Shown here piece by piece: positions 30,193 to 45,357 of a stretch of 54,784 bases of DNA (the stretch's first letter is position 1; each line of letters opens with the position of its first letter). A model generated the notes under the pieces. That model was not told the origin of the DNA. It did not search any database and was given only the letters and a program-made list of their open reading frames with translations. The stretch lies in IMG/VR virus record IMGVR_UViG_3300022932_000095, positions 1 to 54,784 of that record, one strand, 5' to 3'. This DNA comes from a virus. Both the position numbers and the translations under genes were made by a program.

Positions 30193-30224
30193 TTTGTATT
30201 ATAAATATATTATGTACATCTTTG
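30193..30224 (+). promoter_or_regulatory. Rightward early promoter
   Basis: TTTG (30193-30196), 20 bases, then CATCTTTG (30217-30224), one base off TAnnTTTG. It precedes the stem-loop leader of the gene at 30257. Confidence 0.5.
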
Positions 30225-30229
30225 AAGTG

Positions 30230-30247
30230 TCGGAGCAAACAAGCCGA
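30230..30247 (+). promoter_or_regulatory. 5' leader stem-loop with CAAACAAG loop, copy 1
   Basis: TCGG (30230-30233) pairs with CCGA (30244-30247) around a 10-base loop AGCAAACAAG, ten bases before ATG 30257. The same leader with two compensating base-pair changes is at 43109-43126. Confidence 0.55.
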
Positions 30248-30256
30248 TTTAAGATT

Positions 30257-30376
30257 ATGAAAAATCAAAGAATCCACATAGTAATCAACATGAACGCATC
30301 ACAGGCTAAATTGACTGGGTCTGTGTCAGCATCAGTAAGACGTTTAAATGCTTCAATTATTAAATCAGGTAAATAA
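30257..30376 (+). CDS. Small basic protein, first rightward early gene
   Basis: 39 residues beginning MKNQRIHIVINMNASQAKL, basic. It starts at the ATG after the leader stem-loop. Not recognised. The first codons (ATGAAAAATCAAA) equal those of the gene at 44181, which has a similar leader. Confidence 0.5.
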   Translation: MKNQRIHIVINMNASQAKLTGSVSASVRRLNASIIKSGK

Positions 30377-30377
30377 G

Positions 30378-30671
30378 ATGAAAACAAATGTAGGCAACAA
30401 AAAGAGTCATATTATGAATTCTTTAAGTGAAAAAGAAAAAACTGGTATTTCTGAAATCGTAAGGCTAGGGGTGTTGATTCCTGGAGCAAAAATAAGTTTG
30501 AATTTAGAAGTAAAAAATATAACTGTTTATGATCTTAAGGTAAAAAATGGAAAGTATAGCGATGATTACCTATTCCATTTTGACGCCTGGTTTAGCGGGA
30601 ATACAGATAAACTTTACCAATGCATTGACTCACTTACAAAATATATTTCAGATAATGGGCTGCTTAAATAG
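30378..30671 (+). CDS. Hypothetical early protein
   Basis: 97 residues from the ATG one base after the previous stop. Pattern ISEIVRLGVLIPGAKISLNL, then FHFDAWFSGNTDKLYQCIDS. Not recognised. Confidence 0.5.
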   Translation: MKTNVGNKKSHIMNSLSEKEKTGISEIVRLGVLIPGAKISLNLEVKNITVYDLKVKNGKYSDDYLFHFDAWFSGNTDKLYQCIDSLTKYISDNGLLK

Positions 30672-30756
30672 ATATAAATGGTTTCTTAGGATAACTATTT
30701 TTGCCGGGACAGTAGCGGTTATTTTAACAATTATATACTTTACAATAACAAAATGA
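30655..30756 (+). CDS. Small membrane protein
   Basis: 33 residues, basic start (MGCLNRYKWFLR) and one membrane span (ITIFAGTVAVILTIIYF). Overlaps both neighbours (ATGA at its end), supporting translation. Confidence 0.45.
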   Translation: MGCLNRYKWFLRITIFAGTVAVILTIIYFTITK

Positions 30757-31568
30757 AAAAACACAAATTACTCGAAAAAGCAATGCAGGACTATCCCGCT
30801 GGAACTAAGTTTAAGCACATTAATGGAGATGATGTAATCACGTCAAATGGTATATTCAAAATTTATCACGGACTCAAAGTTGCACTTTATAATGAATCCG
30901 GAGATTATGTTTTTAACAGCGAAAAATGGGCAACAATCATCCCTGAAAAACCAGAATCAATCCTTACCGGGAAATGCGCAATACAAATTAACAATGATCG
31001 TGAGTTTAAGTTACTGATGGAGCATTATGAGAGTAAGGGGTGGAAGTGTATTAATCGCCTTGAACATAACGAAGTTGACTATATGAAGGAATCATGGGCA
31101 TATCACGACTTTTTTGGTCATGCGTCTGATGAGTGGAGATCGAGCAACGGGTACAAAATAATCCCCTTCTCCGATTTCGCATCTGAGGTGGGTATTAAAG
31201 TCCCTGTATTCATTATGACCTCTGAGGATGGAGTTGACCTATATGAGGGAGATAAATATTATGTAGCCTCTAAATATAAAAAATGTGGGCTAGTATTACC
31301 AGATACAATTGAAACCGATCACCCTGTTTTAATGTTCCCATCCACAAACAAGGCTTTCTCCACCAAAGAAGCAGCAGAAAATTGGATAGCTGAACATAAT
31401 AAACCTAAGGAGATAACAGTTCAGTTGTTCAATAAATATCATTCGGCTAAAATAAGTAAAGGCTGGGTTTCTATTAGAGTTGGAAAGGGTTTGCACGTTA
31501 CTACTACTGTATTTAAACCATCTGATATAGAAGAAATGTATACAGCCATTAAATCCCTACAGCCATGA
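30753..31568 (+). CDS. Hypothetical early protein
   Basis: 271 residues with an internal segment KLLEKAMQDYPAGTKFKH at the N-terminus that I associate with short phage proteins, repeated in style at 150-230. It seems to be two or three small modules in tandem. No enzyme motif. ATGA overlaps at both ends. Confidence 0.5.
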   Translation: MKKHKLLEKAMQDYPAGTKFKHINGDDVITSNGIFKIYHGLKVALYNESGDYVFNSEKWATIIPEKPESILTGKCAIQINNDREFKLLMEHYESKGWKCINRLEHNEVDYMKESWAYHDFFGHASDEWRSSNGYKIIPFSDFASEVGIKVPVFIMTSEDGVDLYEGDKYYVASKYKKCGLVLPDTIETDHPVLMFPSTNKAFSTKEAAENWIAEHNKPKEITVQLFNKYHSAKISKGWVSIRVGKGLHVTTTVFKPSDIEEMYTAIKSLQP

Positions 31569-31846
31569 GCATGCCGATTATATACTACTGGATAGGTTTT
31601 ATGGTATTTTGGGTTATGATTGCCAGTTTACTAATGCTATTGGCCTCTTTGTCATGGTATACCTTGATTGGATTGATAGAAAAAGAATGGGTTTGCTTCT
31701 ACATCAAAGGCGAGTCAAAAAGCACAATCATTCTCAGGCTGAGTTATAGGATGCTAATTGTGCCAATAGAACAAAAGCGTTGGATTTTAATGTATAGGCT
31801 AAGAAATATAAAATATGCAAACAGAAATAGAGGAAGACAAAGTTAA
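31565..31846 (+). CDS. Small membrane protein
   Basis: 93 residues, two membrane spans (about 5-25 and 28-50) and a basic C-terminus (RNIKYANRNRGRQ). Not recognised. Confidence 0.45.
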   Translation: MSMPIIYYWIGFMVFWVMIASLLMLLASLSWYTLIGLIEKEWVCFYIKGESKSTIILRLSYRMLIVPIEQKRWILMYRLRNIKYANRNRGRQS

Positions 31847-31991
31847 AATAAGGAATGTTTTTGATAGCCTTAAAGACATTTCAAATGTTGCATTCAAAAC
31901 AGATAAAGGTAAAGAGATCCAGCAAGGACTATTGGATGCATGGATCATAATAAAACCTTATTTGATTACAATGGCTAAAGAATTGAAATAA
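31815..31991 (+). CDS. Small acidic protein before the recombination genes
   Basis: 58 residues: MQTEIEEDKVKIRNVFDSLK and a hydrophobic C-terminal helix. Stop overlaps the next ATG (TAATG). Confidence 0.5.
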   Translation: MQTEIEEDKVKIRNVFDSLKDISNVAFKTDKGKEIQQGLLDAWIIIKPYLITMAKELK

Positions 31992-32527
31992 TGGCAAAAG
32001 AAACGAATATAGATTGTAGAAAATACAGGAAGTCTACTCACTTGGCAGCTGCCGATCTAGACGCTATGTATGTAGAGGGGAAGCCTTTAATTTTTACAAT
32101 AAAAGAAGTATGGTATGACACTAAGGTAGATGTATCTGGAGAGAAAACAGACGGATATTTCTGCTCATTCAAGGAGCCAATAAAAGACATGGTTATCAAT
32201 TCAACAAACAGAAAAGTAATAGCTGGTTTTGCAAGGAAAAAAGGGTTTAATGAAATTGACTGCTGGAATATAGGTAATTGGAATGGTATAAGAATAGAGT
32301 TTTTTGTTTTGAGGGACATTAAAGCTTTCGGAAAGGTGCAAGACGGAATAAGGATAAAGCCAATGCAGCCGGAAGAAAAAAAGAAGCCTATATTTTCAGA
32401 GGCTAACTTTGAAAAGGCAAATATAGCAAATGCGAATATTGAAACCATTGAAAAAGCATATCAACTAACAGAAGAAGTAAAACAACAATACTTAAAATAT
32501 GTATCAGACAACAGCCTCACTTCATAG
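31991..32527 (+). CDS. Putative DNA-binding recombination partner
   Basis: 178 residues, strand-rich with an acidic/basic start (IDCRKYRKSTHLAAADLDAM). It overlaps the YqaJ exonuclease gene by 29 bases. The place suggests an exonuclease partner or single-strand binding-like role, but no family is clear from the sequence. Confidence 0.5.
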   Translation: MAKETNIDCRKYRKSTHLAAADLDAMYVEGKPLIFTIKEVWYDTKVDVSGEKTDGYFCSFKEPIKDMVINSTNRKVIAGFARKKGFNEIDCWNIGNWNGIRIEFFVLRDIKAFGKVQDGIRIKPMQPEEKKKPIFSEANFEKANIANANIETIEKAYQLTEEVKQQYLKYVSDNSLTS

Positions 32528-33152
32528 TAATCACCCGCAAAGATCACCAGAATGGCACACTGAAAGGATAGGCAAATTCACGAGCAGCAAAGCATCGGTA
32601 CTTTTGGGAGAAAAGGGGCTTGGCGAAATGGGAAAAACATACGCGTTGCAATTAGCGGTAGATATTGTGGAAGGAATTGATTACGACGCAAGAGAATCTT
32701 CTATGACGTGGGACATGAAAAATGGTATTGAAACTGAACCTTTTGCGTTCGATAAGTTTAAACACCTTAAATCCTTGGATTTCATAGACGTGGTTAATTG
32801 CGGGTTTTTTACCCTTAATAAAGATGTAGGAGGTAGTCCTGATGGTCTGGTGGGCAATGATGCTGTACTGGAAATTAAATGCCCTAAATCAGACACATTC
32901 TTTAAATTGGTTAAAACACTAGAGATAGATAAGGCTCACTATAACCAGGTTCAACATCAAATGTGGGTTTCTGGCAAAGAGAGGGCTTATTATTTCAATT
33001 ACGTCTTACACATAGGGGTGGAAAAGTGGCACGAAATAATTATACAAAGGGACGAAAAGGTGATCGATCTGTTAAAGAAAAGGACTATTGAAGCGATTGA
33101 AATAAGAAACGATTATATAGAAGTTTTAAAAAAGAATAGGCAGTATAAATAA
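32499..33152 (+). CDS. YqaJ-type (lambda exonuclease-like) exonuclease
   Basis: 217 residues. N-terminal RSPEWHTERIGKFTSSKASV and catalytic core GSPDGLVG (Asp, about 112) with LEIKCPKS (Glu and Lys, about 125) are the YqaJ pattern; YNQVQHQMWVSG (about 148) adds the conserved Gln. A 5'-3' exonuclease making single strands for recombination is expected. No RecT- or Erf-type annealase was recognised. Confidence 0.9.
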   Translation: MYQTTASLHSNHPQRSPEWHTERIGKFTSSKASVLLGEKGLGEMGKTYALQLAVDIVEGIDYDARESSMTWDMKNGIETEPFAFDKFKHLKSLDFIDVVNCGFFTLNKDVGGSPDGLVGNDAVLEIKCPKSDTFFKLVKTLEIDKAHYNQVQHQMWVSGKERAYYFNYVLHIGVEKWHEIIIQRDEKVIDLLKKRTIEAIEIRNDYIEVLKKNRQYK

Positions 33153-33162
33153 AACCCCGTAA

Positions 33163-33209
33163 TCCATACCGGAATAGAATAGTATGGAGTAAATTAATAT
33201 AATTCTATT
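33163..33209 (+). ncRNA. Candidate H-type pseudoknot after yqaJ
   Basis: Two perfect interleaved stems: TCCATAC (33163-33169) with GTATGGA (33182-33188), and AATAGAAT (33173-33180) with ATTCTATT (33202-33209). Loops of 3, 1 and 13 bases fit an H-type pseudoknot. It lies between the stop codon and the terminator at 33219. The AAAACCCCGTAA just before it also follows the stop of the gene ending at 43420. Confidence 0.5.
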
Positions 33210-33218
33210 GACTTAATT

Positions 33219-33243
33219 AGCCCCTAAATATTGGGGCTTTTTT
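33219..33243 (+). terminator. Terminator after the exonuclease gene
   Basis: Stem AGCCCC / GGGGCT with an 8-base loop and six T. Confidence 0.85.
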
Positions 33244-33258
33244 ATTTATTTTAAAATA

Positions 33259-33292
33259 AATACGCGTATTATAAATAATAGTTGTATATTTG
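33259..33292 (+). promoter_or_regulatory. Promoter with palindromic operator candidate
   Basis: TATATTTG (33285-33292) matches the -7 element; the -33 region has no TTTG but instead the palindrome AATACGCGTATT (33259-33270). The same palindrome core occurs at the promoter at 45007. ATATC (33294-33298) can pair with GATAT (33313-33317), which covers the start codon. Confidence 0.5.
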
Positions 33293-33315
33293 AATATCAA
33301 ACTAAAACAAAGGAT

Positions 33316-33426
33316 ATGAACTTAGGATCACACGGTAACAAATCGCAATTCGGTAAGGCTACACCTTATCTCATAACAGCTTTTATAGCTCTTATAGTTA
33401 TTATGTTTTATTGCTCAAAATTATAA
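33316..33426 (+). CDS. Small membrane protein
   Basis: 36 residues, one membrane span (PYLITAFIALIVIMFYC). First gene after the 33285 promoter; the next ATG follows one base after the stop. Confidence 0.5.
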   Translation: MNLGSHGNKSQFGKATPYLITAFIALIVIMFYCSKL

Positions 33427-33427
33427 C

Positions 33428-33616
33428 ATGGAAGGTACAAAAAAAAGAAACGACTGGAAAAAACAGATGACAGATCTTGAATTAGGATCTGACTTCACTG
33501 ATAGCTCTGAACACTACGGATCACTTAGGGCAATGCGCTCTAAACTTAAATCAGATGGATACATGTTCACATTTAAAATAGGTAAAGGGTTGATTACAGT
33601 TAAACGTGTAAAGTAA
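33428..33616 (+). CDS. Small basic protein
   Basis: 62 residues: KKRNDWKKQMTDLELGSDF, then HYGSLRAMRSKLKSDGYMF and GLITVKRVK. Basic with a winged-helix-like end, so DNA binding is possible. Not recognised. Confidence 0.5.
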   Translation: MEGTKKRNDWKKQMTDLELGSDFTDSSEHYGSLRAMRSKLKSDGYMFTFKIGKGLITVKRVK

Positions 33617-33969
33617 TGAGCGAAAAAATAGCCGAATGGAAAAATACATTTATTATTGAAAATGTACACTCAATGACAGACAAATCCATATCAAGAGCCA
33701 TAGCGGTTAGTCAGGGGTATGTTCAACGAGTCAGGTTGTCTGCTGGAATAAAAAGGAATATTAATATTAATGATCCAGATAGAAAGGAGACTATTGTAAA
33801 AATGCTTGAAGATTACTGGTGTAATTATACATCATTTGAAATATTATCAATGAGATATAGCATGAACACCGGAACCATATCTAAGTATATACAACTACTT
33901 TTTAAGCTTCCTGTGAATAAAGAAACTAAAACAATCACTTTAAAATCAAAAATATGGGAAAACAGTTAA
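33616..33969 (+). CDS. Putative helix-turn-helix protein
   Basis: 117 residues. Two HTH-like segments are visible (TDKSISRAIAVSQGYVQRVR about 22-41; TSFEILSMRYSMNTGTISKY about 75-94). Likely a small DNA-binding protein of the replication region. Start overlaps the previous stop. Confidence 0.55.
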   Translation: MSEKIAEWKNTFIIENVHSMTDKSISRAIAVSQGYVQRVRLSAGIKRNININDPDRKETIVKMLEDYWCNYTSFEILSMRYSMNTGTISKYIQLLFKLPVNKETKTITLKSKIWENS

Positions 33970-34178
33970 TGGCAGAAAAGATGCTGGAATTAACCGCATC
34001 AGCGGGATACAGAAAGGCAATCAAAGAGATGAATGCTCTGCAAAGGAATTTTAGCTCTCAACGCTTCATTTACCTACACGCCCCAAGTCAGCAAACTCAA
34101 GACTTATTGCGTGACCAGGGGTTTAAGGTAGAAAGGACGTCAGTAAAGGATTATATCCAGTTTAAAATAAGTTGGTAA
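33969..34178 (+). CDS. Hypothetical protein
   Basis: 69 residues from the ATG in a TAATG overlap; a start at 33954 is also possible. MAEKMLELTASAGYRKAIKE then FIYLHAPSQQTQDLLRDQG. Not recognised. Confidence 0.5.
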   Translation: MAEKMLELTASAGYRKAIKEMNALQRNFSSQRFIYLHAPSQQTQDLLRDQGFKVERTSVKDYIQFKISW

Positions 34179-34678
34179 TGACTCGCAAAGTAAAACAAAA
34201 AGAATTCGACATACCAGAATCAGTATGCTTATTCAACAAAAACGAAATAGAATACATCAACCAGGCTAGTAAATCCATACCTTATAGGGTTGATGTTCAG
34301 AAAGCCGAAATACTGGTTCCGCCTGATCATATAGAACAGGCAGGGGACAACTTACACGTAAGACATCTGGTCACTAAATTTGCTTTTGCAGTACAGACAA
34401 CAATAGGAGCTGAATACATGCCATATAAGGAGTTTAATCCTGTTATGAGTATAAAACCTCACAAGAAAGAAATTAATGCAACAGGAGTCTTAGAAATAGG
34501 TATAGGCTTTGAATTTAAAGACACCAGGGATTATAATAAAACAAAAAGGATATTTTCTGATAAAGGCAAAGATTGGGTGATACAGCACCTCAACGATATG
34601 AGGCCCAACTACCCTGTTAGCAAGATAAGCTTTGATATTATGATGAAAGATAAATTATACCTGCCATGCCAAGGGTAA
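34178..34678 (+). CDS. Hypothetical protein of the replication region
   Basis: 166 residues from the ATG in a TAATG overlap (the TTG at 34172 is less likely). Mixed alpha/beta, no motif recognised. Overlaps the next gene by 13 bases. Confidence 0.5.
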   Translation: MTRKVKQKEFDIPESVCLFNKNEIEYINQASKSIPYRVDVQKAEILVPPDHIEQAGDNLHVRHLVTKFAFAVQTTIGAEYMPYKEFNPVMSIKPHKKEINATGVLEIGIGFEFKDTRDYNKTKRIFSDKGKDWVIQHLNDMRPNYPVSKISFDIMMKDKLYLPCQG

Positions 34679-35193
34679 CATTGTCAGTTGAGGAGGCTCT
34701 ACGAAGGGTGAAAGAAAGGTCAAAAAAGTCAAACGCAACATCGAAGGCTAAACGTGACGCTGAAAGAGCTTTAGGGATACCAGCAAAGAAACGGCCTTTA
34801 TCGGATACTGAAAAAGAAAACAATCGGATAAGAGTTAGGCAGTGGCGTGAGAAACAGAAACTCCTTAAACCACCCAGAATAAAAATGACTCGCGAGGAAT
34901 GGTTAATGGCTAAACGATTAGCTGCAAGGAGACAATACCAAAACAGGATACTTAAACAAGGCAAAACATATAAACCTAATAAAATGGAAAAAGTATTAAA
35001 GTCGCGTCCAGCAAACAGAATCAGCGAAAAAGTAATTAAACCGGTGAAAGACGACATGTTAAAACAACCTGTGTGTTTGATAAAAGCTGATGATTCAGGA
35101 AAAGTTAAAATTCAATTGGACGCCAAAACATGGGTTATGGCTTTGCCAGGTGCAGATGTAAACGCTTTAAGGAGGAAGTATTTAGGATTATGA
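34666..35193 (+). CDS. Basic, helical DNA-associated protein
   Basis: 175 residues, very rich in Arg and Lys (EEALRRVKERSKKSNATSKA, RIRVRQWREKQKLLKP, AARRQYQNR). Long charged helices and a small folded C-terminus suggest nucleic-acid binding. No family recognised. Confidence 0.5.
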   Translation: MPRVTLSVEEALRRVKERSKKSNATSKAKRDAERALGIPAKKRPLSDTEKENNRIRVRQWREKQKLLKPPRIKMTREEWLMAKRLAARRQYQNRILKQGKTYKPNKMEKVLKSRPANRISEKVIKPVKDDMLKQPVCLIKADDSGKVKIQLDAKTWVMALPGADVNALRRKYLGL

Positions 35194-35333
35194 AAGAAGC
35201 CGGAGTCACATTATTGATATATTTATTTGGGGTTACAATTATGGTAAATAGTTTTGGTATAATTCAACTTACTTTTGCCACCATATTATGGGCTTTTTTA
35301 TCGCCTTTTATAGCTAAAAAACTTTTAAGATAA
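35190..35333 (+). CDS. Small membrane protein
   Basis: 47 residues with two membrane spans (VTLLIYLFGVTIMVN; LTFATILWAFLSPFI). Start in ATGA overlap with the preceding gene. Confidence 0.5.
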   Translation: MKEAGVTLLIYLFGVTIMVNSFGIIQLTFATILWAFLSPFIAKKLLR

Positions 35334-35337
35334 AAAT

Positions 35338-35730
35338 ATGAAACCACAAGAATTAAGAATTGGGAATTTAGTCTACTTAGTATTAGAAAATAGCCCGAAT
35401 ATAAAAGAACAGCATATCGTAGAGCCGACAACTTTAATGATGCTAACAGGGGAAGTCAACAGCAAAGGTACTTATTTAGATCCAATACCCTTAACAGAAG
35501 AATGGTTGTTAAAATTTGGGTTTGAATATAATATCAAACGATATTATCATCCAACAACAATGCTATTTGAACTATTTAATGTGTCTGCTTTGCATGGCGG
35601 GTTCAAGATCATAGCCGGGAGAAAAGAAAAGAATATTATACTTCAAATATCACACCCAATTAAACACGTCCACCAATTACAAAACATTTACTTTGCACTT
35701 ACCGGAGAAGAATTAATAATTAAGGAATGA
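35338..35730 (+). CDS. Conserved phage protein, paralogue of 48174
   Basis: 130 residues: QELRIGNLVYL at the start, LTEEWLLKFGF in the middle, VHQLQNIYFALTGEEL at the end. The gene at 48174-48572 carries the same three motifs. I know this pattern from Bacteroidota phages but not its function. Confidence 0.65.
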   Translation: MKPQELRIGNLVYLVLENSPNIKEQHIVEPTTLMMLTGEVNSKGTYLDPIPLTEEWLLKFGFEYNIKRYYHPTTMLFELFNVSALHGGFKIIAGRKEKNIILQISHPIKHVHQLQNIYFALTGEELIIKE

Positions 35731-35888
35731 TATTCAAAAAAGAAAATAGTCCTCATGTAACTATACTAGTGGATTTAGAGATCGGACAAAAATTTATGAT
35801 TGACGAATGGGGGCCGGCACTGAATGGAAAAATATGTACTATAGAAGACATAAGGTTGTGCTCAGGGAGTTATTTTAAAAAAATATGA
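35727..35888 (+). CDS. Small hypothetical protein
   Basis: 53 residues, MIFKKENSPHVTILVDLEIG then KFMIDEWGPALNGKIC; starts in ATGA overlap. Looks like a truncated or stand-alone member of a short phage family. Confidence 0.45.
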   Translation: MIFKKENSPHVTILVDLEIGQKFMIDEWGPALNGKICTIEDIRLCSGSYFKKI

Positions 35889-35917
35889 ATAAATAATGGT
35901 ATATTTATAAACCATCC

Positions 35918-36010
35918 GGTTTGCGCCATAGAGTTGGTAATAAAAAAGAAATTTAAATGCCTTGTTGGCTGAGTAGGAAAGCGCAAATTCTGAAAGGTCG
36001 ACAAGGCATT
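35918..36010 (+). ncRNA. Candidate structured RNA with tRNA D-arm-like part
   Basis: A perfect 10-bp stem AATGCCTTGT (35956-35965) / ACAAGGCATT (36001-36010) encloses a small arm GCT / AGC with loop GAGTAGGAA, like a tRNA D arm. TTTGCGC (35920-35926), outside the stem, matches GCGCAAA (35981-35987) inside its loop, giving a pseudoknot arrangement. No anticodon or T arm is formed, so it is not a normal tRNA. It ends 20 bases before the next gene and could be its leader. Confidence 0.5.
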
Positions 36011-36030
36011 GTTGTTTTAATTCGGTTTAT

Positions 36031-36348
36031 ATGGAATTATTGCTACCTCATCAGTGCCATGTCTGCGGAGTGGAAGATGAAGCAAAATTAGTGTACGCAG
36101 GGCCACACGTTAAACAAGTCTGCAATGCTTGCGATACCTATGTTAAGTTTATCAGCAAATCTTTTATACCAGATATCAGGGAGGTAAAGCTTCGAATATG
36201 GTCAATTACACAGGACACATCTTATATTGAGGCAGCTAAAGAATCATGTTCATTCGTTGAAAATCTAAACGGTTTAGATGGAAAAATGATGTACTGGAGA
36301 TTATATATTAAAATAAGAGAAATGGAGGATAAGGATGATAAATCTTAG
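36031..36348 (+). CDS. Zinc-finger protein before the helicase
   Basis: 105 residues with two CxxC pairs near the N-terminus (CHVCGVEDE about 9; CNACDTYVK about 31), probably binding one zinc ion. The rest is helical. It overlaps the helicase gene by 14 bases, suggesting a partner in replication or transcription. Confidence 0.6.
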   Translation: MELLLPHQCHVCGVEDEAKLVYAGPHVKQVCNACDTYVKFISKSFIPDIREVKLRIWSITQDTSYIEAAKESCSFVENLNGLDGKMMYWRLYIKIREMEDKDDKS

Positions 36349-37771: not shown

Positions 37772-37772
37772 C

Positions 37773-39962
37773 ATGAACATATCTATATTCAATTCCCTTC
37801 CAAAAAAGGGAGAGCCACACGTATCGTCTGATAAGATTACTATAACAGAGTTTCTAAACTGCGTCAAATATGGTAAATGGAAAAACAAAGTAGAACAGAT
37901 AAGGGTAGAGCAGGAAAAAACAAAAAGAGATCAATTAAAAAGGGGCCTGCCAAGCGTTACAATATCGGGGACTTTTATCGAAAGAGACCAGGATAAATTA
38001 ATACAGCACAGCGGATTTATATGTATGGATATTGATTACTTCACGGATAAAAGTGAATTATTAAATGATCCTTATACGTATTCCATTTTTAAAAGCGCAT
38101 CAGGGGCCGGGCTTGCTATTCTTGTTAAAGTCAACCCTGAAAAGCATTCAGAATCATTCAAATGGATGCAGAATTACTATTATCAATCTTTTGGTATTAA
38201 GGTGGACAGCGCGCCACAAAATATAGCTAGTTTACGTTTTGCTTCTTATGACCCTAATTTAGTTGTAAACGAAAAATCTAAAATAAGCAGGACTCTTGTT
38301 GATAAACCTAGAAAAATTCATTCTTTACCAATTGTTTTGCCCGGAGATATAGTAGGGGAAATGATCGTTGAATGTGTAAATCTGGGTCATAATATTGCTA
38401 GTGATTATGATAGTTACATGAAATTGGGATTTGCTATTGCTGATGGATTCGGAGAAAATGGACGTGACTGGTTTTTATCATTGTGTTCGGTTTCTGAAAA
38501 GTTTGACAGTAGGCACGCTAACAAGCAATACGATATTTCATTAAAGGGCAATAAAGCAGGTATAACCGTAGGCACTCTTTACTGGATGTTAAAGCAGGTT
38601 GGTATACACGCCCCTCAACAAAGTAACCAGGCTATCCATGTGGCTGCAATGGGTAAGAAATCAGGTAGAAGTCCTGAGGCTGTTAAAAGGCAACTTGTGG
38701 ATATGCAGGGGATAGATGAAAAGAAGGCAGAGGAATTAGTGAATGAGGTTTTTAAAAGGAATGACATTTCTATAAAATCAGCAGCAAGCGACCCTGAACA
38801 ACTCATACAGGCTCTCACTGAATGGATACAACAAAACCACCCTATGAGAGTCAATCAGATAACGAAGATGATTGAAGAAAATGGAAGCGATGTAAATAAA
38901 GCGAGGATAAACTCCATATACTTACGAGCTAGAATGTTTTTCAACACAAAGGATATTACAAAAGATCTTTGTGAGTCATATATTTTTTCTGATTTCATTA
39001 CCAGCTTTAACCCAATAACTGAATATATAGAGAAAAATTTACACCGCAAAAGCAGTGGTAATATATCTATGCTATCTGAATCTATAAGATCAGAAACGCC
39101 AATGAAAGAAGTTTTCATTCGTAAGTGGGTGATTAGTCTGATTGCAGCTTATGATGGTCACCCAGTTAGATCTGTACTGGCATTGGTTGGGGGTCAAAAT
39201 AGCGGTAAAACAGAATGGTTCAGGCGATTATTGCCGAATACTTTAAAAAAATATTACGCTGAATCTAAGCTAGATGCAGGAAAAGACGATGATATATTGA
39301 TGTGTCAAAAGCTGATAGTTATGGATGATGAGATGGGAGGTAAAAGCAAGCAGGACGAAAAGAGATTTAAGGAATTAACATCTAAGGCTGTATTTTCTTT
39401 ACGAGCTCCCTATGGAGCTTACAACGAGGACTTTAAACGACTTGCGGTATTATGTGGCACGTCTAACGATCCAGAGGTAATAAATGACCCTACAGGCAAT
39501 ACCAGGATATTACCTGTAGAGGTATTATCTATTAATCACGAGCTTTTTAATTCAATTGACAAAAATGAGTTATTTATGGAGGCTTACAGGGCATACGAAT
39601 CAGGCGAAGAATGGAAACTTACCAATGAAGAGTTGCTAGACCTTGAATCCGTAGGTCACAATTTTGAAAGCACTTCATCAGAAAGAGAATTGATACTTAA
39701 ATTTTTCAGTCCTGCTACGCCTGGCAAGTTTTCAGAATGGCTAACCACCACCGAAATTAAAGATGTTCTTGAAACAAATACTAAACAAAAAATCATGGGG
39801 ACAAAAAAATTAGGAGCAGAGTTGAGGTCTATTTTTGGTAAAAGTGTAAGTAAAAAAATTGGAGGAATACCTCTTTATAGATATGAGGTAGTACGTTACA
39901 GGTCTTATGAAATTGACCCTAAAACCGCTAAAAACTCTGATAATGAGGATGTTAAGTTTTAG
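37773..39962 (+). CDS. VirE-type primase-helicase
   Basis: 729 residues. About 45-170 fit the BT4734/VirE N-terminal domain (FICMDIDYF, then FKSASGAGLAILVKVNP), probably the priming part. The middle is a PriCT-2-like linker region. About 460-620 form the VirE ATPase of the SF3/D5 type with Walker A GGQNSGKTEWF and Walker B LIVMDDEM. The C-terminal 100 residues look like a winged helix. Expected to be the main replication protein; the candidate origin lies directly downstream. Confidence 0.85.
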   Translation: MNISIFNSLPKKGEPHVSSDKITITEFLNCVKYGKWKNKVEQIRVEQEKTKRDQLKRGLPSVTISGTFIERDQDKLIQHSGFICMDIDYFTDKSELLNDPYTYSIFKSASGAGLAILVKVNPEKHSESFKWMQNYYYQSFGIKVDSAPQNIASLRFASYDPNLVVNEKSKISRTLVDKPRKIHSLPIVLPGDIVGEMIVECVNLGHNIASDYDSYMKLGFAIADGFGENGRDWFLSLCSVSEKFDSRHANKQYDISLKGNKAGITVGTLYWMLKQVGIHAPQQSNQAIHVAAMGKKSGRSPEAVKRQLVDMQGIDEKKAEELVNEVFKRNDISIKSAASDPEQLIQALTEWIQQNHPMRVNQITKMIEENGSDVNKARINSIYLRARMFFNTKDITKDLCESYIFSDFITSFNPITEYIEKNLHRKSSGNISMLSESIRSETPMKEVFIRKWVISLIAAYDGHPVRSVLALVGGQNSGKTEWFRRLLPNTLKKYYAESKLDAGKDDDILMCQKLIVMDDEMGGKSKQDEKRFKELTSKAVFSLRAPYGAYNEDFKRLAVLCGTSNDPEVINDPTGNTRILPVEVLSINHELFNSIDKNELFMEAYRAYESGEEWKLTNEELLDLESVGHNFESTSSERELILKFFSPATPGKFSEWLTTTEIKDVLETNTKQKIMGTKKLGAELRSIFGKSVSKKIGGIPLYRYEVVRYRSYEIDPKTAKNSDNEDVKF

Positions 39963-40191
39963 ACACGAGGTAGTAAGTAGTGAGGTAGTATCGATTTTAC
40001 TTGGCGATTCCTTCGTAAAGAATTAAGTTTAATAATTTTCATACAGTACTTACCTATATACTAAACTCTTAATACTTATTCTTACTACCTTACTACTTTT
40101 ATTAAAAAACAATACTAGGACTACTATAAACAACGATTTATGGTAGTATAATTAACCTACTACCTACATACTACCCTTACTACTACTAAAA
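39963..40191. other. Candidate replication origin with iterons
   Basis: 229 bases without a gene, AT-rich. The 7-mer GGTAGTA occurs at 39969, 39984 and 40142, and its complement TACTACC at 40083, 40158 and 40169, plus related TACTACTAC near 40180. Such clustered repeats beside a primase-helicase gene are typical of phage origins. No terminator or promoter was recognised in it. Confidence 0.55.
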
Positions 40192-40536
40192 ATGGAAAAA
40201 AGAGAAAAATCAGAAATTAAAGCTCAAAGTGATGCATTTGTAAACCTTTGGAATAACAGACCAGATTTGAGGGGAAGAATATTTGCAATAAACAACAACA
40301 GCGAAAATGCTATAAAGGGTGCTTTTAATAAAGCTATGGGTGTTTTGCCTGGAGTAAGTGATATGGCGTTTGTAAAAGCGTCAGGATTAATATTGTGGAT
40401 TGAATGGAAGACGTCTACAGGCACACAAAGTGCACATCAAATAGAATGGCAGAAATTGGTGGAGTTACTAGGGCATGAATATGTAGTTGTAAGAAGTGAG
40501 GCAGAGTTTTTAACGCAAATTAAAAATAATGAATAA
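40192..40536 (+). CDS. VRR-NUC nuclease
   Basis: 114 residues, the size of a stand-alone VRR-NUC domain. Motifs: GVLPGVSDMAF (Asp, about 60), LWIEWKT (Glu-x-Lys, about 72) and QSAHQIEW (Gln, about 82). These PD-(D/E)XK nucleases cut branched DNA and commonly accompany VirE-type primases in phages. Confidence 0.88.
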   Translation: MEKREKSEIKAQSDAFVNLWNNRPDLRGRIFAINNNSENAIKGAFNKAMGVLPGVSDMAFVKASGLILWIEWKTSTGTQSAHQIEWQKLVELLGHEYVVVRSEAEFLTQIKNNE

Positions 40537-40750
40537 CATCATAAAAAATAACGGTGAGTATATGGTGACACAATTCACAGGAGATAACGGAACATGGAAT
40601 ATGGTATGCAGCGAATGCATTAGGGACTCTGCGCTAGAATGTAAAGATACATTCAAAAACACTAAAACAGGAGAGAGAATTACAGCCACAAGATTAACAG
40701 TTTTAAAGCAAGCTGAATCTGGACAAATTTACTTTAGCGAATATATTTGA
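40529..40750 (+). CDS. Hypothetical protein
   Basis: 73 residues, overlaps the VRR-NUC gene by eight bases. It contains a single Cys-x2-Cys (CSECIRDSAL). Not recognised. Confidence 0.5.
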   Translation: MNNIIKNNGEYMVTQFTGDNGTWNMVCSECIRDSALECKDTFKNTKTGERITATRLTVLKQAESGQIYFSEYI

Positions 40751-40753
40751 GTT

Positions 40754-40921
40754 ATGAACCCAAGACACGAAAAACATAAACCTCATTTGGTTAAGCAGTA
40801 TAAGGCACAAATAAACAGAATCGAAAAGTGTGTATATTGGGCTCTAATTTTATTTATAGGATGCACAAATGATCATATGAGCGTCTTAGGAACATTTTTT
40901 TCTAACAGATTCAAAAAATAG
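40754..40921 (+). CDS. Small membrane protein
   Basis: 55 residues: basic N-terminus and one hydrophobic span (VYWALILFIGC). It ends inside the promoter of the terminase gene. Confidence 0.45.
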   Translation: MNPRHEKHKPHLVKQYKAQINRIEKCVYWALILFIGCTNDHMSVLGTFFSNRFKK

Positions 40922-40925
40922 TTTG

Positions 40926-40933
40926 TATATTTG
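40926..40933 (+). promoter_or_regulatory. Promoter -7 element of the terminase operon
   Basis: TATATTTG, an exact TAnnTTTG match, 18 bases before the ATG at 40952. No TTTG at -33 was found; the region there is T-rich. Confidence 0.55.
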
Positions 40934-40951
40934 TGGTTGACAATAATTAAC

Positions 40952-41458
40952 ATGACTGAATTACAAAGAAGGTTTGCGGACAGGTATTTTGAGACACTAA
41001 ATGGCTCACAATCAGCTATATATGCAGGGTACTCTGAGGCTACATCTAGGCAAAAAGCATGTGAATTATTAAACGATCCGGAAATAGAGGCATACATATC
41101 TGCTCTAAAGGCAGAATATGCTGAAAAATCAGGGATAAGTAAGATGCGTGTATTAGATGAGTACCGTAAAATTGCATTCTCTGATGTTAGGAATGTTTTA
41201 ACCGTTGATGGTGGACTCAAAAGCATAGATGATATAGACGACGATACGTCCGGTGCAATTGCCTCTATAGAATCATTTGACGAAGTAGACAGATCAGGGG
41301 AGAGGTTGGGTACAAATAGAAAGATAAAATTGCATGATAAATTAAGAGCATTAGAAGCCCTGTCTAAGCACTTGGGATTATTTGAGAAGGATAACGATCA
41401 AAAGAAAAATCAAGCAACAGTAACAATATTTGAGCTGCCTGATAATGGCAGAAAGTAA
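40952..41458 (+). CDS. Terminase small subunit
   Basis: 168 residues from the ATG downstream of the -7 element; a TTG seven codons earlier lies within the promoter and is rejected. MTELQRRFADRYFETLNGSQ, SAIYAGYSEATSRQKACELL and PEIEAYISALKAE form the helical DNA-recognition domain of the Terminase_2 family. It recognises the packaging site, so a cos or pac site is expected near here. It is followed by the large subunit. Confidence 0.9.
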   Translation: MTELQRRFADRYFETLNGSQSAIYAGYSEATSRQKACELLNDPEIEAYISALKAEYAEKSGISKMRVLDEYRKIAFSDVRNVLTVDGGLKSIDDIDDDTSGAIASIESFDEVDRSGERLGTNRKIKLHDKLRALEALSKHLGLFEKDNDQKKNQATVTIFELPDNGRK

Positions 41459-41503
41459 CTGACCGGATGAAGACCGGCAAGTGGGTAAGAGGCCACAAAA
41501 ATT

Positions 41504-41529
41504 AGCTATCTTTGCGGATAGCTTTTTTT
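41504..41529 (+). terminator. Terminator hairpin abutting the large terminase start
   Basis: Stem AGCTATC / GATAGCT with a 6-base loop and seven T, ending at the base before ATG 41530. It may act as an attenuator between the terminase genes. Confidence 0.65.
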
Positions 41530-43041
41530 ATGCAGGAACAAATAAAAAGGATTAGACCCCAAGACGGGTATCAATTAGAGTTTGCATCTTCTTCTGCTGA
41601 TATATGTATTGGGGGTGGGGCAGCCGGAGTAGGGAAAACGTTTTCATTGCTATTGGAGCCTATAAGACATAAAGATGTCGACGGGTTTGGATCTGTGATA
41701 TTCAGAAGAACAAACCCGCAAATAAGAAACGAGGGTGGTCTATGGGACACATCAATGGGACTTTATAATTTATTAGGCGCAACCCCAAGACAAAGCAATT
41801 TAGAGTGGATTTTTGAAAAATCAAAACTTAAATTCTCACACCTAGAGTACGAAAAAAATATATACGACTGGCAGGGGTCTCAGATACCATTCATAGGATT
41901 TGATGAGCTTACCCATTTCACAAAAAAAATGTTTTTTTATTTATTAACCCGTAACAGATCTGTATGCGGTGTAAATCCATACGTTAGAGCGACATGCAAT
42001 CCTGATCCGGATAGTTGGGTAGCAGAGTTCATATCTTGGTGGATTGACCAGGAAACAGGGTATGCAATCCCAGAAAGAAGGGGTAAATTAAGGTATCTTA
42101 TTGTTGATGGTGATAATTATTTATGGGGGGATAGCAAAGCAGAGGTTATAGAAAAAGGATGGCATATTATAGGGGAGGTCGTTGAAAGATCTGGGATCGA
42201 CCCAAACGAATTTGTAAAATCTGTGACATTTATAGGTGGCAGTATTTACGACAATAAAGAGTTGTTAAAAGAAAATCCGGCGTATTTAGGGAACCTGCTA
42301 GCGCAAGACAAAGATGTTCAGGCAGCTCTATTACATTCTAATTGGAAAGTTGTGTTGTCTGATAATGATATATACGATTACCCTTCGTTTTTAGGCATGT
42401 TTAACAACTTATACGAAATAGAAAAAGAAGAACGATATATAACAGCGGATATAGCATTGGAGGGCTCTAATAAGTTTATAATAGGCGGATGGGAAGGAAA
42501 AGAGTTGATAGCAATAAAAGTAATAGATAAATCCAACGGAAAGCAGGTTGTTGACGCAATAACCGGTATGGCAAAAGACATAAAATGTCAGAATAAAAAT
42601 ATATGTTATGACAATGACGGTGTGGGCGGGTTTGTCGAAGGATTCATACCTGGGGCTATACCTTTTCACAATGGAGGTTCCGCTATGCCAGATCCAGAAT
42701 CTGTTAATGATAAAAAAACACCAGAAAGATATGAGCACATAAAGGCTCAATGCTATTATAGATCAGGGAAAGCAGTACAAAGAGGAGAATATAAAGTTTC
42801 AGAAACAGTATATAATTCAATGTATGATGATAAAATGACAATAAGGCAACGTTTCATGCATGAAAGAAAGGCTATAAAAAAAGACAAACTAGATCAGGAC
42901 GGAAAATTATGCTTGATAAAAAAGGGGGCTATGAAAGCTAAGCTAAATGGGGACTCTCCTGATTTAATGGATATGTTTATGATGCGGGAAAGATTTGAAT
43001 TAGAGAAAAAAGCTAAAGAACTATCATTCGGATGGGATTAA
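41530..43041 (+). CDS. Terminase large subunit
   Basis: 503 residues from ATG 41530; a TTG at 41512 is in the hairpin. ATPase: Walker A GGAAGVGKT (about 33-41) and Walker B QIPFIGFDELTHF (about 120). RNase H-like nuclease: Asp in YITADIALEGS (about 302), Asp in CYDNDGVGG (about 360) and Asp in the DSPDLMDMF end (about 480). It translocates and cuts DNA at the portal. Type not assigned, so headful versus cos cleavage is open. Confidence 0.93.
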   Translation: MQEQIKRIRPQDGYQLEFASSSADICIGGGAAGVGKTFSLLLEPIRHKDVDGFGSVIFRRTNPQIRNEGGLWDTSMGLYNLLGATPRQSNLEWIFEKSKLKFSHLEYEKNIYDWQGSQIPFIGFDELTHFTKKMFFYLLTRNRSVCGVNPYVRATCNPDPDSWVAEFISWWIDQETGYAIPERRGKLRYLIVDGDNYLWGDSKAEVIEKGWHIIGEVVERSGIDPNEFVKSVTFIGGSIYDNKELLKENPAYLGNLLAQDKDVQAALLHSNWKVVLSDNDIYDYPSFLGMFNNLYEIEKEERYITADIALEGSNKFIIGGWEGKELIAIKVIDKSNGKQVVDAITGMAKDIKCQNKNICYDNDGVGGFVEGFIPGAIPFHNGGSAMPDPESVNDKKTPERYEHIKAQCYYRSGKAVQRGEYKVSETVYNSMYDDKMTIRQRFMHERKAIKKDKLDQDGKLCLIKKGAMKAKLNGDSPDLMDMFMMRERFELEKKAKELSFGWD

Positions 43042-43073
43042 TTGTCATAGTAAGGTAATATATAGCCGTATTA

Positions 43074-43104
43074 TTTGCGCCCACAGTTATTATATGTATG
43101 TTTG
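43074..43104 (+). promoter_or_regulatory. Promoter TTTG-N19-TATGTTTG
   Basis: TTTG (43074-43077), 19 bases, TATGTTTG (43097-43104): a full match to the Bacteroidota consensus. It shows that the ATG at 43106 is too close to be the start, so the ATG at 43136 is used. Confidence 0.7.
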
Positions 43105-43108
43105 AATG

Positions 43109-43126
43109 CCGAATCAAACAAGTCGG
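43109..43126 (+). promoter_or_regulatory. 5' leader stem-loop with CAAACAAG loop, copy 2
   Basis: CCGA (43109-43112) pairs with TCGG (43123-43126) around ATCAAACAAG, ten bases before ATG 43136. Compared with the copy at 30230, the outer and inner base pairs are both exchanged while the loop core is kept. Confidence 0.55.
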
Positions 43127-43135
43127 TGTAAGTTT

Positions 43136-43420
43136 ATGGAACTAAATAAATTAGGGAAAAAGAGTAAAGGCGTAAAGTATTTTAGCCTGAACGCTCAAAA
43201 CGAATTAGGGTATACCGTTAAATGTTCGAACGCCAGGGTGAGATACACCTTCAACAATATAAATGAAATAGAATGGACGCATCAAGGCGTAAAGGTATAC
43301 ATGAGCTCTAAGCATCATACAATGGAATTCGAGAGTTATGATTTGTCGATGTGGCACAACGTCACTATTGCACCAGCGGAAAAAGTGGCCGTGTATTTAT
43401 TGGATACACATAGAAAGTAA
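43136..43420 (+). CDS. Small accessory protein
   Basis: 94 residues beginning MELNKLGKKSKGVKYFSLNA; strand-rich. First gene of the small accessory block after the terminase. Not recognised. Confidence 0.5.
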   Translation: MELNKLGKKSKGVKYFSLNAQNELGYTVKCSNARVRYTFNNINEIEWTHQGVKVYMSSKHHTMEFESYDLSMWHNVTIAPAEKVAVYLLDTHRK

Positions 43421-43484
43421 AACTAAAACCCCGTAACGTTTGCTATGGTGTTTTGTCATAATAATGTCATATGGTTAAATATTA

Positions 43485-43515
43485 TTTGTGGGTGCAATAA
43501 ATATTATTACCTTTA
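43485..43515 (+). promoter_or_regulatory. Promoter TTTG-N19-TACCTTTA
   Basis: TTTG (43485-43488), 19 bases, TACCTTTA (43508-43515), close to consensus. The stretch ATTATTACCTTTACA is nearly repeated at the promoter at 45026. It drives the small gene at 43550. Confidence 0.6.
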
Positions 43516-43549
43516 CATCATCGGCAACGAACAATTAAAAATAACGATT

Positions 43550-43690
43550 ATGAAAACTCAAACAGGAATCATCACTTATAAAAACTACACTGAGAAAGTT
43601 ACAATAGATAATAATTTTGATACTCAAGCATTGTACGATATAATGAAAAACGACCCTGATTTCGTAAGCTTTAAAATTGAGGAGGCATAG
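43550..43690 (+). CDS. Small accessory protein
   Basis: 46 residues, MKTQTGIITYKNYTEKVTID then acidic; starts downstream of the promoter at 43508, not at the earlier ATG at 43445 which precedes it. Not recognised. Confidence 0.5.
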   Translation: MKTQTGIITYKNYTEKVTIDNNFDTQALYDIMKNDPDFVSFKIEEA

Positions 43691-43692
43691 AG

Positions 43693-43971
43693 ATGACACG
43701 TAAAGAAATTCAAAAACAAATCAATAAAGCTCAGGACATAAAAAAGTTTTCTGAAAGCCTTATCGAAGAAAAGGCTTTGCCACCGGAAGAAAGGCGCAAA
43801 ATATCGGTATTGGACAAAGAGATAATGAAAGCATGTGAGCAGTATAATTCTATATATGATAAACTCACTAAAGATGCAGCGCGTAACGATTGGACTATAT
43901 TCGATTTCGAAGTAAACGATTATTTCGATTTCGAAACATTTGATTCTGATGTCGCTTACTTAAAAGACTAA
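43693..43971 (+). CDS. Small acidic accessory protein
   Basis: 92 residues, helical N-terminal part (KEIQKQINKAQDIKKFSESL) and a very acidic, Phe/Asp-rich C-terminus (FDFEVNDYFDFETFDSD). Such acidic tails can mimic DNA, but nothing more supports that here. Confidence 0.5.
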   Translation: MTRKEIQKQINKAQDIKKFSESLIEEKALPPEERRKISVLDKEIMKACEQYNSIYDKLTKDAARNDWTIFDFEVNDYFDFETFDSDVAYLKD

Positions 43972-43974
43972 ATT

Positions 43975-44076
43975 ATGAAAAAGGTATTTAAAGATATACT
44001 TATATGCTTACACCCGTTATTATTAATAGCGTATATAATCATAGTCTTGCATGTATTAAAGCTATACAATTTTTAA
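43975..44076 (+). CDS. Small membrane protein
   Basis: 33 residues, almost entirely one membrane span (LICLHPLLLIAYIIIVLHVL). Three bases after the preceding stop. Confidence 0.45.
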   Translation: MKKVFKDILICLHPLLLIAYIIIVLHVLKLYNF

Positions 44077-44092
44077 ATTACACAGCCCCATA

Positions 44093-44143
44093 ATGGTTCG
44101 CCGAATAATCGCCTCGCATAGAAATATGCGAGGATTTGGCGGT
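44093..44143 (+). ncRNA. Duplicated hairpin RNA element, copy 1
   Basis: Outer stem TCGCCGAAT (44098-44106) / ATTTGGCGG (44134-44142), inner stem CCTCGCAT (44112-44119) / ATGCGAGG (44126-44133), 5-base bulge only on the 5' side. Copy 2 at 44619-44672 keeps both stems with base-pair substitutions. It lies just before a GCCCC-TTCG-GGGGC hairpin (44152-44165) and the gene at 44181. Confidence 0.65.
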
Positions 44144-44144
44144 G

Positions 44145-44165
44145 CAAACAAGCCCCTTCGGGGGC
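44145..44165 (+). promoter_or_regulatory. CAAACAAG motif and UUCG hairpin in a 5' leader
   Basis: CAAACAAG (44145-44152) adjoins a perfect GCCCC / GGGGC stem closed by TTCG (44152-44165), 15 bases before ATG 44181. The leader then reads TATAAGTTATG as in the other two CAAACAAG leaders. Confidence 0.5.
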
Positions 44166-44180
44166 ATTAAAATATAAGTT

Positions 44181-44387
44181 ATGAAAAATCAAACATCAAT
44201 AGTTCATTTTGAAAATAGTAGAAACGGATTAATTTCGGTAGGTTATGCTCTTGACGGTAACCAGTTTTCAGGGTATTACATTGCAAGATATTTAGGTGGT
44301 AAATTGATCGGTTTCCAGGGCACGACTTCATCTAAAGGCAAGAAACCATTTATGAGGATGCCTAAGCAATTTATAGTTAACAATTAA
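44181..44387 (+). CDS. Small accessory protein
   Basis: 68 residues: MKNQTSIVHFENSRNGLISV, strand-rich, basic C-terminus. Its leader holds copy 1 of the duplicated hairpin. Not recognised. Confidence 0.5.
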   Translation: MKNQTSIVHFENSRNGLISVGYALDGNQFSGYYIARYLGGKLIGFQGTTSSKGKKPFMRMPKQFIVNN

Positions 44388-44397
44388 TAATATCATT

Positions 44398-44604
44398 ATG
44401 AAACTCAAAATTACATCACAACCAACCTACGATCTTTTAGTTTCGAGAGGACACGGAGTTCCCAGAACAGATAATAATGACATACAAGACGGTTGGATAG
44501 TTGGTAAAAGATATTTAGTTAAACCAACTAATGAGCGAGAGCCATTAAAAGTACGTTGTACGCAAGATTGCCCTTATCATCTACAGGTAGTACACGAAGA
44601 TTAA
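44398..44604 (+). CDS. Small accessory protein
   Basis: 68 residues: MKLKITSQPTYDLLVSRGHG, then WIVGKRYLVKPTN. Strand-rich, perhaps an SH3-like barrel. Not recognised. Confidence 0.45.
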   Translation: MKLKITSQPTYDLLVSRGHGVPRTDNNDIQDGWIVGKRYLVKPTNEREPLKVRCTQDCPYHLQVVHED

Positions 44605-44618
44605 AAATAACCTCTAAC

Positions 44619-44672
44619 ATGGTTCCGCTGAATACAACCGCCTCGCATATTACTATGCGGGGATTTGGCGGT
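44619..44672 (+). ncRNA. Duplicated hairpin RNA element, copy 2
   Basis: Outer stem CCGCTGAAT (44625-44633) / ATTTGGCGG (44663-44671), inner stem CCTCGCATA (44641-44649) / TATGCGGGG (44654-44662), 7-base 5' bulge. Relative to copy 1, C-G becomes T-G in the outer stem, T-G becomes C-G at its base, and T-A becomes T-G in the inner stem. It is 17 bases before the gene at 44689. Confidence 0.65.
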
Positions 44673-44688
44673 AAAAAATCTATAGATC

Positions 44689-44805
44689 ATGGAAAAATAT
44701 CATTCAGAAATACAAAACACTTTAGACAACACGATCCTAAGCGTGACAATTACATTCTTAATAGCCGGTATATCCTTGGCAATTTCAATAGCGTTTATTT
44801 TATAA
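44689..44805 (+). CDS. Small membrane protein
   Basis: 38 residues; polar start (MEKYHSEIQNTLDNTIL) and one membrane span (VTITFLIAGISLAISIAFIL). Directly after hairpin copy 2. Confidence 0.45.
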   Translation: MEKYHSEIQNTLDNTILSVTITFLIAGISLAISIAFIL

Positions 44806-44807
44806 CA

Positions 44808-44966
44808 ATGGAAGAAAAGACTAAAAGACCAGTAGGCGCACCAAAAAAGGCCCCGACGTTTAAACCCTCATTACGTTGCCGTGTGGATACCTGGAGAACA
44901 TTGCAGTCGAAATACCCGAAGCAACTTAATGCTATGTTTAATGCCTGGCTTGAAAGCTTAAAGTAA
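44808..44966 (+). CDS. Small basic DNA-binding-type protein
   Basis: 52 residues. An AT-hook-like start (KRPVGAPKKAP) is followed by a strand and two helices (SLRCRVDTWRTLQSKYPKQL), resembling ribbon-helix-helix repressors. It could regulate nearby promoters, for example the palindromic one at 45007. Longer upstream frame is rejected because it would run through the hairpin. Confidence 0.5.
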   Translation: MEEKTKRPVGAPKKAPTFKPSLRCRVDTWRTLQSKYPKQLNAMFNAWLESLK

Positions 44967-45002
44967 CATATCTTTTACAATTAAAAATATTTTAAAATAC
45001 CT

Positions 45003-45033
45003 CTTGATAATACGCGTATTATTATTACCTTTA
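45003..45033 (+). promoter_or_regulatory. Promoter with 16-bp palindrome between its elements
   Basis: CTTG (45003-45006), 19 bases, TACCTTTA (45026-45033). Within the spacer lies the perfect 16-bp palindrome ATAATACGCGTATTAT (45007-45022), whose core also lies at the promoter at 33285. Downstream, ATCAG (45038-45042) can pair with CTGAT (45054-45058) around a loop with CAAACAAA. Confidence 0.6.
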
Positions 45034-45066
45034 CACCATCAGACACAAACAAACTGATTATGTATT

Positions 45067-45357
45067 ATGAAAACAAGACTTTTTAAAATCGCGCATTCAA
45101 TTAAAGGCCATTATGCTACGTTCTCAGAAGCTTTAACCGCAGCATGGAAAGTAATTAAGCTTATGTTGAAATTAAAGTCTGGAACAGCCTCATTCGCCTT
45201 TAAAAAGGTAGATGGATCAATTAGAAAAGCAATAGGTACGCTGAAAGACGTTCCGGCTTCAAAAGGAGTTAAAGCAACTAACTATGGGCAGTTTATATAC
45301 TTCGATATAGAGGCTAATGATTTCAGATCTGCTAAAGTTGAAAATTTAATATTTTAA
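45067..45357 (+). CDS. DUF2693/SH3-like small protein
   Basis: 96 residues. The second half (ASFAFKKVDGSIRKAIGTLK, then FIYFDIEANDFRSAKVENLI) has the pattern of small SH3/WYL-like proteins (DUF2693) frequent in Bacteroidota mobile elements. Role unknown; regulation by ligand or protein binding has been supposed for the fold. Confidence 0.6.
   Translation: MKTRLFKIAHSIKGHYATFSEALTAAWKVIKLMLKLKSGTASFAFKKVDGSIRKAIGTLKDVPASKGVKATNYGQFIYFDIEANDFRSAKVENLIF

Follow-up and report, generated by a model that had tools for sequence, protein, structure and literature searches.

How ribosomes of Bacteroidota choose start sites without Shine-Dalgarno (SD) pairing is an open question, and one phage genome raises it in a compact form: do the short hairpins with a CAAACAA loop that stand just upstream of some of its start codons constitute a family of RNA signals? 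The DNA analysed here (the window) is the whole of IMG/VR virus record IMGVR_UViG_3300022932_000095, 54,784 bases, which its promoters and gene content mark as a Bacteroidota phage. Its sigma-A promoters are of the TAnnTTTG type, which is the Bacteroidota consensus (PMC7366714), and it encodes a BT4734-like primase, a terminase and a portal protein. The window has no nucleotide relatives among deposited phages, Rfam covariance models gave no match at E ≤ 1 over its whole length, and the papers searched on leaders and antitermination in Bacteroidota phages contained nothing relevant to these hairpins. We found that they belong to a small but real family of covarying 5'-leader hairpins of Bacteroidota phages, with nine members, three of them in the window.

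Three hairpin leaders in the window

The leaders at 30230, 43109 and 45038 (leaders 1, 2 and 3; Table 1) share a TAnnTTTR promoter, a stem of 4–5 bp and a CAAACAAR loop, and each has its ATG at a distance of exactly 14 nt from CAAACAA. By itself, the heptamer shows no enrichment in the window (14 observed, 14.8 expected); only the combination of promoter, stem, loop and ATG is unusual. The core stem of leader 1, TCGG-AGCAAACAAG-CCGA, occupies 30230–30247 and is followed by the ATG at 30257, and a G·U pair lengthens the leader 2 hairpin to 43108–43127. As originally predicted, the stems of these two leaders (TCGG/CCGA and CCGA/TCGG) have their pairs exchanged and remain paired. RNAfold energies are −4.3 kcal/mol for leader 1, in the same fold as the proposed stem, −4.7 kcal/mol for leader 2 and −2.3 kcal/mol for leader 3.

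The original prediction had grouped five leaders. These three hold at their coordinates, and the sites at 44145 and 33294 drop out. The former does contain the loop sequence CAAACAAG, but has neither a promoter nor a matching stem and lies 29 nt from its ATG. It is preceded by a GC-rich terminator-like hairpin (CGCC-TCGCATAGAAATATGCGAG-GATTT-GGCGG) and sits in an intercistronic terminator-like element between two genes; a site in G006 that resembles it is a codon run of a lipoprotein signal peptide. At 33294–33317 an ATATC/GATAT stem exists, but it reaches into the start codon and encloses a different loop, without CAAACAA; the covariance model described below gave it E 0.6 in 0.9 Mb. Another candidate, at 43500 (stem ATCG/CGAT, long loop), reached only E 2.2. 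The TAAG-n-TTATG end that had been thought to be shared is not kept in other members, and it is the spacing that is conserved.

Members in other phages

The other six members are in G001, G002, L242, G003, G007 and a prophage of genome G618. A pattern of TTTG, short stem and loop matched 37 IMG/VR stretches, two of which have a TAnnTTTG box before and an ATG after, namely G001 (= L005) and G002 (= L033); the others are almost all coding. The same two leaders were the sole promoter-leader matches in a stem-blind IMG/VR scan for TANNTTTGAA-N8-CAAACAAG, and both have the stem. In a fixed register, 4 and 3 of the 4 positions are paired in these two leaders, and the 63 other distinct stem-blind matches include one with 4/4 pairs and six with 3/4. 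L242 came from a scan permitting covarying stems, and G003 from relatives of the WYL_2 protein by its promoter, A/C-rich motif and ATG, with no stem demanded. A covariance model built from seven leaders (model R1), which scores its training sequence leader 1 at 43.6 bits, recovered two unseen leaders in the right genomic setting, in G007 (E 0.0015) and in the G618 prophage (E 6.8e-5). G007 has two adjacent related leaders. Further covarying examples in other phages, whose absence would have refuted the original prediction, thus number six, and four of the five pairs show compensatory change.

The element has a nearly fixed layout. The stem starts 4–6 nt past TTTR, TTTR lies 10–12 nt from CAAACA, and seven of the nine members have a CAAACAN-to-ATG distance of 14 nt (16 in G001, 12 in G618). 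In 24 phage records (~0.85 Mb) we counted 23 hairpins around CAAACAR that have 4 bp or more and two G-C pairs; nine have a promoter upstream, and all nine of those have an ATG downstream. Other heptamers of the same composition gave nothing beyond overlaps with these sites and a single case with AAAACAC. Since several of the 24 records were chosen for having the element, these counts show specificity of context, not frequency.

Searches of ~1,190 Bacteroidota genomes, made with strict filters under which weak matches can be lost and partly overlapped by a family-level search, returned one convincing member, the G618 prophage. A pattern scan of genome contigs gave five matches and no convincing leader. 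In 395 sampled Bacteroidota genomes, model matches were fewer than chance predicts at that E-value and lay almost all in coding DNA. The isolated phages phi10:1, RAP44, 6H, laban6-1 and TCUEAP2 have no member. With one prophage in ~1,190 genomes and none in five isolated phages, the hairpin is therefore rare and belongs to phages.

Covariation and folding of the stem

Standard pairs fill 94.3% of the stem cells in an alignment of seven leaders and 92.5% in one of eight. In the latter, changes on both sides occur at four of the five pairs (8 cells), as expected of a structured cis-acting RNA motif: the variants are U-A/C-G/U·G, G-C/A-U, G-C/A-U and A-U/G-C/G·U, and the fifth pair is always C-G. 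G003, for example, has the same promoter type as leader 3 and differs from it by an A-U to G-C compensation in the stem. Controls in slid registers were 0–44% paired, and none of 500 shuffles reached the covariation score of the eight-leader alignment. When the flanks were shuffled within the nine leaders, the total stem score (110) compared with a mean of 41, and none of 20,000 shuffles was as high. Conservation is higher in the loop than in the stem, and CAAACAA is invariant in the alignment. Because the double changes keep the pairing around an invariant asymmetric loop, the element would be an RNA rather than a DNA operator. The RNA nature of the element thus appears well supported. Of the earlier proposal of a common post-transcriptional signal, it is the RNA-structure part that gains from this, since six more examples carry compensatory changes at four of five pairs.

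Several observations weigh against this reading. The flank-shuffle figure is inflated, as some members were selected with stem-containing patterns and the shuffle statistics thereby make the case look stronger than it is; for the members found stem-blind, the individual flank-shuffle probabilities are 0.011 (G001), 0.038 (G002) and 0.076 (G003). Each leader folds into the proposed stem by energy alone, only weakly (−1.1 to −6.1 kcal/mol), and one hairpin alone exceeds shuffled sequences. The family is small (nine), with several members related by descent, and every stem change is a transition that keeps the pyrimidine/purine pattern. Finally, the orthologous WYL_2 leaders of L151 and L154 keep CAAACAAA without a stem, which shows that the stem is dispensable in some leaders.

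Genes and genomic setting

The first genes behind the nine leaders fall into eight families and are unrelated but for one pair (window 30230 and G003); what is shared is therefore the leader, not the gene. The element is mostly located between recombination/packaging and structural genes. In the window (43109), G003 and G007, the hairpin directly follows the terminase gene, and the one at 30230 is at a divergent promoter that opens the rightward region. G001, G002 and the G618 prophage have the order recombination and replication genes, Holliday junction resolvase, divergent regulator-like gene, hairpin promoter and small genes; terminase and portal genes come after the small genes in G001 and G618, and the G002 record ends earlier. 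The resolvase is phrog_1770 (tested for G001 and L242), and the L242 hairpin adjoins the resolvase gene directly on its 3' side. The 58-amino-acid (aa) product of the gene opposite leader 1 looks like a DNA-binding helix-turn-helix protein.

The WYL_2 protein is a tempting candidate partner of the hairpin in the window, G003 and G007. As a universal partner it was rejected, because G001 has none; the stretches of G002, L242 and G618, all partial, did not reveal it either. No other shared candidate partner protein was found. A family of ~40-aa proteins stands behind such leaders in three phages (window 30257–30376, L150 near 9860 and L158 near 3320), and the L158 leader has no hairpin.

Table 1. 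Hairpin leaders of the window and adjoining genes (ORF, open reading frame).
Feature	Position	Strand	Basis or remark
−7 element of leader 1, promoter-like, CATCTTTG	30217–30224	+	Sequence; model R1 match 30217–30248
Leader 1 hairpin, GTCGG-AGCAAACAAG-CCGAT, outer pair G·U	30229–30248	+	RNAfold; covariation over eight leaders
ORF behind leader 1, 39 aa	30257–30376	+	Homologous small ORF after G003 hairpin (phmmer E about 1e-5)
Small divergent gene opposite leader 1, 58 aa	29949–30125	−	No Pfam match
Terminase large subunit, immediately 5' of leader 2	41512–43041	+
−7 promoter element of leader 2, TATGTTTG	43097–43104	+	TTG −33 element upstream
Leader 2 hairpin, CCGA-ATCAAACAAG-TCGG	43109–43126	+	RNAfold; covariation; ATG 43136
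ORF behind leader 2, 94 aa	43136–43420	+	No relatives in IMG/VR
−7 element of leader 3, promoter-like, TACCTTTA	45026–45033	+	TTG upstream
Leader 3 hairpin, ATCAG-ACACAAACAAA-CTGAT	45038–45058	+	RNAfold; ATG 45067
WYL_2 protein behind leader 3 (PF10902, Sm-like SH3 fold)	45067–45357	+	Pfam E 1.8e-18

A possible role at translation initiation

The best reading of these sequences is that the hairpin is carried by phage mRNAs, mainly late ones. We regard the chances as evenly balanced that it is a cis-acting, 5'-terminal RNA hairpin on certain Bacteroidota-phage mRNAs that acts post-transcriptionally, probably at translation initiation. From a sigma-A promoter (TTG...TAnnTTTR), transcription would start 4–6 nt downstream. 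Given the position of the −7 element, the transcript would begin at the hairpin or no more than 1–2 nt from it, with NNCAAACAAR displayed in the loop of a 4–5 bp stem. The stem would end ~9–10 nt before the AUG, and the whole hairpin would span about −30 to −11. In SD-less Bacteroidota mRNAs, adenines at −14 to −11 are thought to contact bS1, and initiation usually suffers when the region from −20 to +20 is structured (PMC6847099). The stem covers −14 to −11, and its likeliest role is therefore to control how translation is initiated, the A-rich loop making the contact. The structured element would then replace the unpaired A-rich region, and either the ribosome (for example, through bS1) or an RNA-binding factor of the phage or host might bind its loop. 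Like that region (PMC6847099), the leaders have an A-rich stretch upstream of the AUG, and several members have adenines at −3 and −6; unlike it, they have −14 to −11 paired, as part of the 3' stem arm, and their A-rich stretch is displaced into the loop, at about −21 to −15. A 5'-terminal hairpin may additionally slow 5'-end-dependent decay. Only tentatively do we entertain the broader idea that this is a phage signal of SD-less bacteria, common to unrelated phages, in which the CAAACAA hairpin marks late mRNAs for preferential or factor-dependent initiation in place of an SD sequence.

Because the stem begins 4–6 nt past TTTR, where the transcript is expected to start, it might by itself guard the 5' end from pyrophosphohydrolase- or endonuclease-dependent decay, the loop being kept since A/C-rich leaders are favoured; leaders without the stem in these phages contain CAAACAA(A) as well. 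The leaders of Escherichia coli ompA and T7 gene 10 resemble this arrangement in that an abundant mRNA carries a stem close to or at its 5' terminus and an unpaired initiation region after it, but the stem here is much weaker, the loop is conserved in sequence and there is no SD sequence. We think this stability role somewhat unlikely, as pure protection needs neither a loop more conserved than the stem nor a fixed AUG spacing, and the stem energies are marginal. Overlap with the transcript start would also suit a DNA site, an operator or initiation-region element at +1 to +20 bound by a phage regulator. Four of the nine members (window 30230, G001, G002 and G618) are at divergent promoters with small regulator-like genes, and the YCGR repeats are palindromic in DNA. 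However, the letters of the stem vary while the pairing and the asymmetric loop stay, the opposite of what an operator would show. The half-sites differ within the window alone (TCGG/CCGA, CCGA/TCGG and TCAG/CTGA), so that no half-site sequence is conserved, and G001, G002 and G618 have separate phage-specific repeats (TATAGAA.., TTGTACAA and TGTACA) upstream of the −7 box, where operators of the regulator would be expected. A DNA site is therefore an unlikely explanation.

Similar leader lengths and promoter sequences, the homologous first ORFs of window 30230 and G003 and the adjacent leaders of G007 might point instead to a mobile promoter-leader cassette spread by recombination, with the stem as a relic of common descent. 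Common descent does not yield double changes that match at four of five pairs while slid controls stay near zero, and eight first-gene families stand behind the nine leaders; we hold this to be quite unlikely. An antitermination leader, loaded on RNA polymerase for read-through of late-operon terminators, would fit the position at the head of late operons. As with lambda boxB/nut and HK022 put, a small leader hairpin heads a phage operon, and in three phages (G001, G002 and G618) a GC-rich terminator-like hairpin directly follows the first gene. None of the three window leaders has a terminator of this kind immediately after its first gene, the stem-loop geometry is different, and no boxA-like sequence is seen by eye in the ~30-nt leaders. 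No N/Q/put-like factor or other antiterminator gene was recognised, though no antiterminator family search was run, and AUG spacing should be irrelevant to such a device, which we judge very improbable. Lastly, the hairpin could be coding, with a conserved peptide at the N terminus (several members give SEQTxRFxIM): the ATG frame gives SEQT(S/N)R in window 30230, G003 and L242 and PNQTSR in window 43109 and G002. With spacings of 16 nt in G001 and 12 nt in G618, the frame differs, and a shared peptide is therefore rejected as the explanation. Window 45038 has an in-frame TGA, and in G002 a TGA lies just upstream with no start codon. The sequences thus seem to have largely refuted this reading, which is scarcely credible.

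Other elements in these phages

Between genes, we observed GC-rich terminator-like hairpins that carry a short run of T; (G)GYGGTGC..GGC or a similar sequence then precedes the following gene. They occur at 44070–44180 and 44620–44690 of the window, in G001 near 42015 (−), in G002 near 1290 (−) and in G009 (L188) at 3995 (+). The two window copies have in common CGCCTCGCATA...TATGCG and an outer CGCC/GGCG pairing. These elements are possibly read-through terminators or processing sites. Another shared leader, TATTGTACAAAACAAAG/ATAATATA in G001, stands at 13920 (−) of L138 (G001) and 13320 (−) of L139 (G002), before a LuxR-like early regulator gene (MLTA...); this gene has relatives in Flavobacterium phages 6H and laban6-1. 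The TATAGAA, TTGTACAA and TGTACA repeats or inverted motifs lie between the hairpin promoter and the divergent gene (L138 ~2640–2760, L139 ~1790–1860 and L317 ~1531–1600); they were spotted by eye and are likely operators of the product of the divergent small gene. In the window, a ~60-base stretch (TGAAAACCGGGCATCTAACCCGGTTTTCATATTATATTTGTACC...) is repeated behind two different genes, at 4255–4325 and 54640–54704.

Known leader hairpins and implications

Initiation control by the CAAACAA hairpin would have precedents in the MS2/R17 coat operator and the T4 gene 32 and RegA sites, which are likewise short phage-mRNA hairpins near a start codon with a conserved loop and a variable paired stem. 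Unlike these translational operators, the hairpin is wholly upstream of the AUG, 5'-terminal and found in phages of SD-less hosts, and several genes per phage can carry it. The family appears to work like known phage leader hairpins, yet is a member of none of the families tested. Late gene control in Bacteroidota phages is little known, and the element offers a small, directly mutable handle on it: it is compact, has a nearly fixed AUG spacing and occurs in several phages while being all but absent from host genes. It bears directly on how Bacteroidota ribosomes choose start sites without SD pairing and, if the hairpin enhances translation, would provide an expression part for Bacteroidota hosts.

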